A DNA stretch of 43,005 bases, taken from an uncultured Anaerolineae bacterium. Lineage in GTDB: Bacteria; Chloroflexota; Anaerolineae; J036; Brachytrichaceae. A model generated the notes under the pieces. The model did not search any database, had not been told where the DNA came from, and saw only the letters and a program-made list of their open reading frames with translations. Shown here in pieces: positions 35,209 to 37,984 of the stretch (position 1 is the stretch's first letter; every line of letters begins with the position of its first letter). Location of the stretch: contig CALHLE010000017.1 in NCBI GenBank assembly GCA_938034415.1, forward strand, positions 1 to 43,005. Direction: 5' to 3'. The position numbers and the translations under genes were made by a program.

Positions 35209-35937
35209 CTATTCGCCCGCCCCTGCGCTCATGCCTTTGGGGAAGAGAACTACGCCGAGTCCGTTGCGGATGATCAGGTAGCGCGGCTGAGATGGGTTCG
35301 GCTCGATCTTGCGGCGCACGCGATGGATCAGCTCATGCAAGTTATCTCTGTGGCGCCGCGCGCCCCATACGGCCTGAATCACCGTCTCGTAATCGCACAC
35401 GTCGTTGGCGCGTTGCATGAGATACTTCATCAGGCGGTACTCGGTGCGCGAGAGGAAAGCTGGCAGCCGCTTGCCGTCGCGCCACACCTCCGCGCCGGGA
35501 CCGATCCATAAGCCGACCTGCGTAGCCGGCAACTCAGCCGGTTGGGCTGACAGCGCAGCGCGCAACGCGACATCAGCCCCATCCTCTGCCTGCATGGTGT
35601 CGCCAAGATAGCAAAACACAACGTCGAACGAATCGCCTATCCGGATACAGTCGCCGCTCGATAACTTGACCTTTTCTTTGTGCAGCAAACGGCCGTTCAC
35701 GGTCGTGCCGTTGCGGCTGTAATCCTCTATGAACCATGCGCCATCCTCGAACACCAGGCGGGCATGTTCACGCGAAGCACGCAGGTCATCGGGGGGAAGC
35801 TGGATGTCGTGCGGGTCAAGTGCGCCGCGACCGATGCGCACAACGGGTGCGCGCAGGATATAGCGCTCATTAGAGCGCGTACTCGATAGCAACAGCGCCG
35901 TTTGCAGTGACGGAACGTGGCTCGACGACACGCTCAT
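35209..35937 (-). CDS. FHA domain fused to an OmpR-type winged helix: putative phospho-responsive transcription regulator
   Basis: The 242-residue protein has two domains. Residues about 12-110 are a forkhead-associated domain with the phosphothreonine-binding residues in place: RIGRG (34-38), SREH (55-58), SRNGT (74-78) and NG (81-82). Residues about 143-235 are an OmpR/PhoB-like winged helix (VWRDGKRLPAFLSRTEYRLMKYLMQRAND, HRDNLHELIHRVRRKIEPNP, RYLIIRNGLGVVL). No receiver domain is present, so control is likely by threonine-phosphorylated partners, perhaps a Ser/Thr kinase encoded elsewhere. It is divergent from the deaminase-CYTH fusion across 64 bases, so the obvious candidate target is that promoter or its own. 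A TAGAAT -10 box ends 8 bases before the ATG. Confidence 0.88.
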   Translation of the reverse strand: MSVSSSHVPSLQTALLLSSTRSNERYILRAPVVRIGRGALDPHDIQLPPDDLRASREHARLVFEDGAWFIEDYSRNGTTVNGRLLHKEKVKLSSGDCIRIGDSFDVVFCYLGDTMQAEDGADVALRAALSAQPAELPATQVGLWIGPGAEVWRDGKRLPAFLSRTEYRLMKYLMQRANDVCDYETVIQAVWGARRHRDNLHELIHRVRRKIEPNPSQPRYLIIRNGLGVVLFPKGMSAGAGE

Positions 35938-35945
35938 ATGCCGTA

Positions 35946-35951
35946 ATTCTA
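35946..35951 (-). promoter_or_regulatory. Candidate -10 box (TAGAAT) for the FHA regulator gene
   Basis: On the minus strand TAGAAT ends 8 bases before ATG 35937, so the mRNA is predicted to be leaderless. Confidence 0.5.
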
Positions 35952-35989
35952 CGTGCTTTCTAAGTTCGCGCAGGGCGTCTTGGCTGTGC

Positions 35990-35995
35990 TATAAC
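35990..35995 (+). promoter_or_regulatory. Candidate -10 box (TATAAC) for the deaminase-CYTH gene
   Basis: TATAAC ends 6 bases before ATG 36002, predicting transcription from the start codon itself. It faces away from the FHA regulator -10 box 38 bases to the left. Confidence 0.5.
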
Positions 35996-36001
35996 CGCCC
36001 C

Positions 36002-37984
36002 ATGCAGCAAGCCGACATTCTGCTCACCGGCGGGATCGTCATCACCATGGACGAAGCCTGCCATCAACACCCCAACGGCGCCGTCGCCATTCGCGGCGAT
36101 ACGATCGTCGCCGTCGGCGACGCCGACGCAATCGCGGCTGCCTACACCGCCAGCGAAGTGATTGACTGCTCAGGCTGCTGCATTATGCCCGGCCTGATCA
36201 ACTGTCACACCCACACGCCGATGACGCTGCTGCGCGGTCTGGCCGACGACCTGCGACTGGACGTATGGCTATATGGTTACATGCTGCCGGTCGAGCGCAA
36301 GTTCGTCTCGCCGGAGTTCGTGGCGCTGGGCGCGCGCCTGGCTTGCGCCGAGATGATCCGCAGCGGGGTGACCTGCGTGAACGACATGTACTACTTCGAG
36401 GAGACCATCGCGCAGACCATTGCCGAGGTCGGCCTGCGGGCGCTGTGTTCGCAGACCATTATGCAGTTCCCCACGCCCGACGCATCCAGCGCGGATGAGA
36501 GTTTGGAGTTCACCGAAGCGTTCATCCGCAAGTGGAAGGGGCATCCGCTGATCACGCCGGTGATCGCGCCACATGCGCCCTACACCTGCAGCGGCCCGCT
36601 CATGCGCGCTTGCGCCGAGATCGCCATCAAATACGACGTGCCGTTGCACATTCACATTAGTGAGACCTTCCAAGAGGTAGAAGACAGCCGTCGCGAACAC
36701 GGCATGCCGGTGGTCAACTGGGTCAAGAAGAACGGCGTGCTAGAGGCCAAGGTGATCGCCGCGCACTGCGTGGCCATAGACGCCGGTGAGATGCGCACGC
36801 TGCGCAACGCCGGCGCAACGGTAGCGCACAATCCCTCGGCCAACCTCAAGTTGGCCAGCGGCATCGCCAACGTCGCCCAGATGTTGAAGACCGGCCTCAA
36901 CGTCGGCATCGGCACCGACGGCCCGGCCAGCAACAACGACCTCGACCACTTCGAGGAGATGCGGCTGGCAGCGCTGTTGGCTAAAGGCAGCACGCGCGAT
37001 CCGGTCGCCGTGCCGGCGCGCACGGCGATGTTGATGGCGACGCGCATGGGCGCACACGCGCTGCACATCGGCCAGATCACCGGTTCCCTCGAAGTCGGCA
37101 AGCGCGCCGATGTCATCGTGCTGGAGCTGCGCCGGCTGCACAGCACGCCGCAGTATTCCAGCATCGCAGCCGGCAGCGACGCCATCTACACACAGATCGT
37201 GTATTCCAGCAAAGCCAGCGACGTGCGCGATGTGTTCGTGAACGGCAAGCCGCTGATGCGCAATCGCGCGCTGCTCACCCTGGACGAGGCTGCGATTGAA
37301 ACCGAAGCCAACCGGCTGGCGCAACAGATCCACACCTTCCTCATGGCGCGCGAAAGCGATGTGCTGCGTAAGCTCGCGGCGATCGGCGGCGTGCAGCAAG
37401 AGGAATCGTTCGAGGTGCAGGTGAAAGCTCGCATCAGCGACCCGCAGCCGATTATCGAGGTGATCAACGGCGGCGAGATCAACGTGGTGCGCCACGTGCA
37501 CTACCGCCAATACGACACCTACTTCTTCTTCCAGGACGAGCCATCACGCCTGCGCTATCGCGAAGACGAGCGCGTGGACGCGCACGGCAACGTGGTCGGC
37601 AGCCGTTACCGCCTGACGCTGGTGAGCGGCCAGAGCGAGCGCGAATACCCCCATTCCATCTTGCTCAGCCGCGTGCGCTTCATGTCGCCGGCCGATCGCA
37701 GCCTGCGCTTCTATCGCGAGTACTTCAAGCCAGCGCGCGAGGTGCAAGTTGAGAAGGATCGCCTGCGCTGGGAAGTGTTCTACGACGACGAGGAGCTGTT
37801 CATCAACATAGACCGCATGGTCAATCCGGCGCACGACGGCTACTTCCTGGAGATTAAAAGCCGCACCTGGAGCAAGCGCGATGCCGAGCGCAAAGCCGCT
37901 GTGATCGGTAAGCTACTGGCGCGCTTCGGCGTGAGCGACGACGCCGTGCTACGGCAGGAATACGTGCAGATTGCGCAGGCATGA
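36002..37984 (+). CDS. Amidohydrolase (SAH/MTA/adenosine deaminase-like) fused to a C-terminal CYTH (triphosphate tunnel) domain
   Basis: A single 660-residue frame joins two domains. Residues 1-430 are an amidohydrolase of the SAH/5'-methylthioadenosine deaminase (MtaD/TrzA-like) group. Metal ligands are His69 and His71 (INCHTHTP), His218 (PLHIHISE), His255 and Asp306 (GIGTDGPASNN), with catalytic Glu221. Family members of this length alone have about 430-450 residues. After a helical linker (about 430-465), residues 468-660 show CYTH features. These are EVQVKAR (471-477; the usual ExExK reads ExQxK), YRQYDTYFF, RLRYRED, YRLTLVSG, RLRWEVFYDDEELFINIDRM and GYFLEIKSRTW, then an aliphatic helix and EYVQIA. 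CYTH domains hydrolyse tripolyphosphate or thiamine triphosphate, or make cAMP. The fusion is not a frameshift artefact. Its function is unknown. Confidence 0.88.
   Translation: MQQADILLTGGIVITMDEACHQHPNGAVAIRGDTIVAVGDADAIAAAYTASEVIDCSGCCIMPGLINCHTHTPMTLLRGLADDLRLDVWLYGYMLPVERKFVSPEFVALGARLACAEMIRSGVTCVNDMYYFEETIAQTIAEVGLRALCSQTIMQFPTPDASSADESLEFTEAFIRKWKGHPLITPVIAPHAPYTCSGPLMRACAEIAIKYDVPLHIHISETFQEVEDSRREHGMPVVNWVKKNGVLEAKVIAAHCVAIDAGEMRTLRNAGATVAHNPSANLKLASGIANVAQMLKTGLNVGIGTDGPASNNDLDHFEEMRLAALLAKGSTRDPVAVPARTAMLMATRMGAHALHIGQITGSLEVGKRADVIVLELRRLHSTPQYSSIAAGSDAIYTQIVYSSKASDVRDVFVNGKPLMRNRALLTLDEAAIETEANRLAQQIHTFLMARESDVLRKLAAIGGVQQEESFEVQVKARISDPQPIIEVINGGEINVVRHVHYRQYDTYFFFQDEPSRLRYREDERVDAHGNVVGSRYRLTLVSGQSEREYPHSILLSRVRFMSPADRSLRFYREYFKPAREVQVEKDRLRWEVFYDDEELFINIDRMVNPAHDGYFLEIKSRTWSKRDAERKAAVIGKLLARFGVSDDAVLRQEYVQIAQA

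Follow-up and report, generated by a model that had tools for sequence, protein, structure and literature searches.

The window, the whole stretch of 43,005 nucleotides that was analysed, contains a single uninterrupted open reading frame at 36002..37984 on the forward strand, which starts with ATG and encodes 660 amino acids plus a stop codon. Three parts can be distinguished in the encoded protein, all read from the forward strand. Residues 1-445 (36002..37336) form an amidohydrolase of COG0402, of the MTA/adenosine-deaminase type according to Pfam, PDB and VIA matches; residues 446-464 (37337..37393) form a conserved helical linker in which F446, E451 and K457 are invariant; and residues 465-660 (37394..37981) are predicted to form a CYTH-fold barrel. 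The full-length AF2 model of the fusion has a pLDDT of 92.4 and a pTM of 0.84, with helices in the linker region at 429-451 and 454-462. No clear Shine-Dalgarno sequence is seen in 35938-36001, ahead of the ATG at 36002.

Divergent from the fusion gene and 64 bp from its start lies a gene on the reverse strand (35209-35937) for a regulator with an FHA domain and an OmpR-type winged helix (Trans_reg_C); about 8 close relatives have the two genes in the same divergent arrangement. The other flanking gene in the window encodes a pterin carbinolamine dehydratase. Upstream neighbours were surveyed at loci L038-L117 and L168-L185, and in other families they include, on the same strand as the fusion, a CinA-type gene (MoCF_biosynth plus CinA_KH) at 27 loci and, at 15 loci, a gene for an M14 carboxypeptidase-like protein.

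The deaminase half is readily recognized. Pfam Amidohydro_1 matches residues 61-417 at 6e-67, and a PDB sequence search with the N-terminal part returns 4f0r (6.5e-95), 4dzh (9.2e-92) and 4dyk from P. aeruginosa (3.9e-77). In the VIA fold comparison, the Z-scores are 59.1 to 4dzh, 58.3 to 4dyk and 57.7 to 4f0r; the top six PDB rows (Z 57.3-59.1) are all MTA/adenosine deaminases or the unassigned relative 3lnp, and the next row falls to 52.5. Thus, the domain is closest to MTA/adenosine deaminases in both sequence and predicted fold. With PA3170 (4dyk, 4gbd), CV_1032 (4f0r, 4f0s) and the X. campestris protein 4dzh, all at Z 57-59, and with TM0936 (1j6p, 1p1m; Z 51), the fusion has in common both the fold and every residue of the active centre; the known COG0402 MTA/adenosine deaminases are, however, single-domain proteins of about 400-470 residues, whereas here a CYTH barrel is appended.

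That centre is intact. The HxH metal ligands His69 and His71 (codons at 36206..36214), the metal ligand His218 and the catalytic acid/base Glu221 (first and last codons of 36653..36664), the catalytic/metal-site residue His255 (36764..36766) and the metal ligand Asp306 (36917..36919) are invariant in 126/126 fusion sequences, as are W89, E98, R146 and H191, which align to 4f0r. A preliminary description of this DNA had listed H69, H71, H218, H255 and D306 as the metal ligands; all five are present and invariant, but H255 is better placed among the catalytic residues than among the ligands, which we take to be its role in this COG0402 subfamily. The best NCBIfam equivalog score of the window protein is 456.8 against a cut-off of 540, so no substrate can be assigned by NCBIfam rules. 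We consider MTA the most probable substrate, a prediction in which we have somewhat more confidence than doubt; SAH, 5'-deoxyadenosine and adenosine are other possible candidates.

Gene order bears on this choice. The fusion and an MTA phosphorylase gene (MTAP, TIGR01694) are convergent (tail-to-tail) neighbours in 12 genomes from 8 families of the class (loci L223-L234, in G028, G042, G044, G046, G052, G056, G066, G074, G079, G097, G165 and G207), with a spacing of 20 to 265 bp in 11 of them and 2.3 kb in one. The arrangement connects the deaminase with MTA or, at the least, with the metabolite pool on which MTAP acts. The closest solved relatives of the MTAP in the window's own genome are mostly MTA phosphorylases, and that copy shares a TDYDxW motif with all twelve neighbours; the neighbour therefore does not appear to be an inosine-type (MTI) phosphorylase. 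Given this gene pair and the MTA/SAH-type deaminases as nearest relatives, the link to SAM by-products suggested at the outset is supported. Replacement of other enzymes by the fusion is rejected, because no complementary pattern is seen: SAH hydrolase occurs in 187/199 and MTAP in 193/199 genomes of the class, whether the fusion is present or absent. Thus, these genomes do not depend on the fusion for those metabolites.

The C-terminal half is recognized less directly. The domain of the window protein alone has no Pfam CYTH match and only a cyaB match (E 0.016), and a PDB sequence search with the C-terminal profile found nothing, so that structural relatives came from fold comparison alone. 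Its relatives are more informative: among 69 aligned family members, Pfam CYTH (PF01928) matches 34 (best 4.8e-9) and the cyaB model 51 (best 5.9e-8), and four fused relatives exceed the curated Pfam CYTH cut-off in a whole-genome search. The AF2 model of residues 465-660 has a pLDDT of 92.6, and VIA superimposes it on PH1819 with Z 18.9, at 2.1 A over 167 residues, followed by the class IV cyclase 3n0z (Z 17.8) and SaTTM (Z 17.5). Together, structure prediction and profile matching establish the domain as a predicted CYTH fold.

The fusion is not a local peculiarity. Its C-terminal domain is present in 115/199 genomes sampled within the class and in 89/400 sampled across the phylum, some of the latter outside the class; from their family grouping, we take these outside carriers to be Chloroflexia. 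Hits in the phylum search have E-values from 1e-97 to 1e-60, and the range between the latter value and the threshold is empty, which marks a discrete family. Each copy examined belongs to a reading frame some 660 residues long that includes the deaminase, except where the contig ends. Neither an unfused orthologue nor a free-standing copy of the fusion-type CYTH domain was found in the class and phylum samples; the short apparent exceptions (in G030, G009, G047, G344 and G570) are ruled out by frames that run into contig ends, and the unfused deaminases that were detected are at most 47% identical. Identical architecture was collected from 126 distinct sequences in many assemblies, including the complete genome of Pelolinea submarina (L078), which excludes chance or misassembly as the source of the fusion. 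In a tree of 87 fusions, 17 of the 18 out-of-class sequences split off with full support; one sequence, L172, clusters with Anaerolineae. The pattern fits an old origin of the fusion, followed by mostly vertical inheritance.

Several proposals of the preliminary description can be judged from these results. The description of the gene as one protein joining a deaminase to a CYTH domain is correct in both domain assignment and coordinates. The checks named for the CYTH identity, a domain search and a structure prediction of residues 465-660, gave CYTH/cyaB matches of relatives and a predicted barrel. The survey proposed for Chloroflexota shows the fusion to be widespread, in two classes and at the frequencies given above. 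Failure to match CYTH, or confinement to a single assembly, had been named in advance as grounds for rejection, and neither was observed.

In the tunnel of the barrel, some motifs are kept and others are uniformly altered. Counts refer to the 126 distinct fusion sequences, and the register is taken from an hhalign profile-profile alignment (E 3.9e-6) with 28 SaTTM-like proteins that are free-standing and come from the same phylum. Ten tunnel residues are invariant in 126/126: E471, K475, D505, Y507, R518, R520, K585, R587, D604 and E617. They include the DxY phosphate-water motif (PMC8233210), here DTY at residues 505-507 (37514..37522), and the phosphate-binding motifs RxR (RYR, 518-520; 37553..37561) and KxR (KDR, 585-587; 37754..37762). 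The hallmark ExExK, by contrast, is replaced by ExQxK (EVQVK, 471-475; 37412..37426), with Q473 in all sequences, and the beta-8 ExE has become ExK (EIK, 617-619; 37850..37858), with K619, also in all sequences, in place of a metal-2 ligand. The LTxK lysine (position 541) is lost, with I, V, T, L, M or R instead, which could weaken triphosphate binding. R559 apparently occupies the column of the conserved strand-5 Glu, although a gap leaves this column uncertain. Tyr654 in the C-terminal plug region (codon at 37961..37963; Tyr in 125/126) is the probable counterpart of SaTTM Y168, judged by position in the hhalign alignment and in PMC8233210. The forward strand carries all of these codons.

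The two replaced glutamates are those that matter for metal in the characterized enzyme. In SaTTM, E5, E7 and E137 together with the substrate hold two metals; metal 1 is held by E7 and E135, while the second glutamates of the ExExK and beta-8 ExE motifs bind the water-activating metal 2, for which the one in ExE is required (PMC8233210). In the fusion, E7 corresponds to Gln and E137 to Lys in 126/126. In the free-standing CYTH proteins of the phylum, ExExK, LTxK, RxR, KxR and ExE are intact in 30/30, and in two genomes (G053 and G152) such a protein with intact motifs exists together with the fusion. Signatures of other CYTH activities are also missing. Class IV cyclases are marked by HFxxxxExExK together with an RxR motif whose first position holds a small residue, and ThTPases by W/YxRxR (PMC8233210). 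The window protein has QQ at 465-466, and HF is not among the eight pairs that are most frequent there in the family (QQ, ME, EQ and others); the first Arg of RxR is R518 in 126/126 rather than a small residue; and position 516 is Arg in the window protein and in 91/126, with W or Y in only 20/126. Read from these aligned residues, the domain carries none of the published catalytic signatures (triphosphatase, class IV cyclase or ThTPase), which makes tripolyphosphate hydrolysis unlikely. The earlier suggestion of tripolyphosphate hydrolysis by the CYTH part finds no support, since Gln and Lys replace both key glutamates throughout the family. Replacements that are invariant down to about 50% identity argue for a selected new role rather than decay. 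Motif loss is no proof of lost catalysis, because activity on pyrophosphate has been reported for AtTTM1/2, which have neither of the hallmark motifs (PMC8233210).

Comparison with known families leads to the same mixture of likeness and difference. With SaTTM and PH1819/PH1012-type proteins, the fusion shares the barrel, DxY, RxR, KxR, the first beta-8 Glu and the plug Tyr position; it differs in ExQxK, in ExK, in the absence of the LTxK lysine and in its deaminase partner. With class IV adenylyl cyclase (CyaB), it shares the fold and the absence of the second beta-8 Glu, but it has no HF motif, keeps the first Arg of RxR and has a beta-8 Lys where CyaB has Ala.

Several roles for the barrel can be weighed against these data. 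A working tripolyphosphatase that clears the PPPi of SAM synthesis would place both halves in the methyl cycle, and the CYTH fold with its intact phosphate-binding residues, the MTA/SAH type of the deaminase and the MTAP neighbour speak for it. However, both determinants of metal 2 used by SaTTM are changed in every sequence, and SAM synthetase itself hydrolyses its PPPi; we regard this role as improbable. Catalysis of another kind, a pyrophosphatase or phosphotransferase working with one metal or none like plant TTM1/2, is unlikely but deserves rather more weight: TTM1/2 are reported to act on pyrophosphate without ExExK and ExE while keeping DxY (PMC8233210), the fusion keeps DxY, RxR, KxR, E471 and E617 without exception, and the fixed Lys could substitute for a metal. 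Against this, neither a catalytic base nor a set of metal ligands can be recognized, and the aromatic residue of W/YxRxR in TTM1/2 is mostly the Arg at 516.

An adenylyl cyclase of class IV, with the deaminase acting on its products, might be suggested by the cyaB matches of 51 of 69 family members, and class IV cyclases likewise lack the second beta-8 Glu. The commonest pairs ahead of the hallmark motif contain no HF, however, the first RxR residue is Arg where cyclases have a small one, and the hallmark motif has lost its second Glu as well, so that we find this reading very hard to credit. The barrel could instead be a structural module for oligomerisation or for binding a partner or nucleic acid, with no small ligand to sense. 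Mediator Med18/20 use the same fold non-enzymatically, and SaTTM dimerises via its barrel (PMC8233210); yet conservation is highest at the positions that form the tunnel lining of CYTH enzymes and not on an outer surface, and we judge a purely structural role doubtful, nearly on a par with the alternative chemistry.

A role in ligand sensing fits the retained and altered residues better than tripolyphosphate hydrolysis does, and the role of the barrel is probably to sense, not to cut, a phosphate compound. In the scheme that we propose, the gene product would be a metal-dependent deaminase of 5'-modified adenosines with a CYTH barrel permanently attached. The barrel may bind a di- or triphosphate, with ATP or another nucleotide as the first choice and inorganic PPPi or PPi as the second, and would do so without assembling the two-metal hydrolytic centre. 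Opening or closing of the tunnel, relayed through the conserved helical linker, might then turn the deaminase up or down, and disposal of adenine-containing by-products would be coupled to the nucleotide or phosphate state of the cell. For this proposal as a whole, an MTA-type deaminase controlled by a CYTH receptor whose phosphate ligand would in the likeliest case be a nucleotide, we see close to an even chance. The more particular claim, that a CYTH barrel was converted from a metal-dependent hydrolase into a polyphosphate/nucleotide receptor that can dispense with the two-metal centre and controls an MTA-type deaminase in two classes, is put forward more tentatively.

Known CYTH partners are CHAD (YgiF), HD hydrolase, exopolyphosphatase and the nucleotidyl kinase of TTM1/2 (PMC8233210). 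These fusions are likewise multidomain proteins, but none in PMC8233210 has an amidohydrolase, and the pairing of CYTH with a deaminase or amidohydrolase was not found in the literature searched, a body of work from which subscription journals are mostly absent. CYTH proteins occur widely, and what they do physiologically is largely an open question. In the present family, nature offers a strictly conserved example of replaced metal motifs beside a phosphate face that is kept; with an attached enzyme whose activity is easily measured, ligand sensing by the CYTH fold can be tested in one coupled assay. If the proposal is true, a CYTH domain would have a sensory role in a new kind of allosteric enzyme, and Chloroflexota would link the disposal of SAM by-products to their energy or phosphate state.

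Three further observations concern individual genomes. The window's genome encodes a separate long CYTH protein (L210, G000:C7:2960-3433; 568 aa frame), which is probably of the CYTH-CHAD type from its C-terminal sequence. MAG SKYG109 (G004; L038 on C121 and L042 on C53) carries the fusion twice, at 95% and 94% identity to the window protein, by duplication or from mixed strains in the bin. Finally, a fusion on a contig labelled Calditrichia (L073, JALWEA010000493.1) is nested in Anaerolineales on the tree, and is probably either a stray or mis-binned contig or a transfer.
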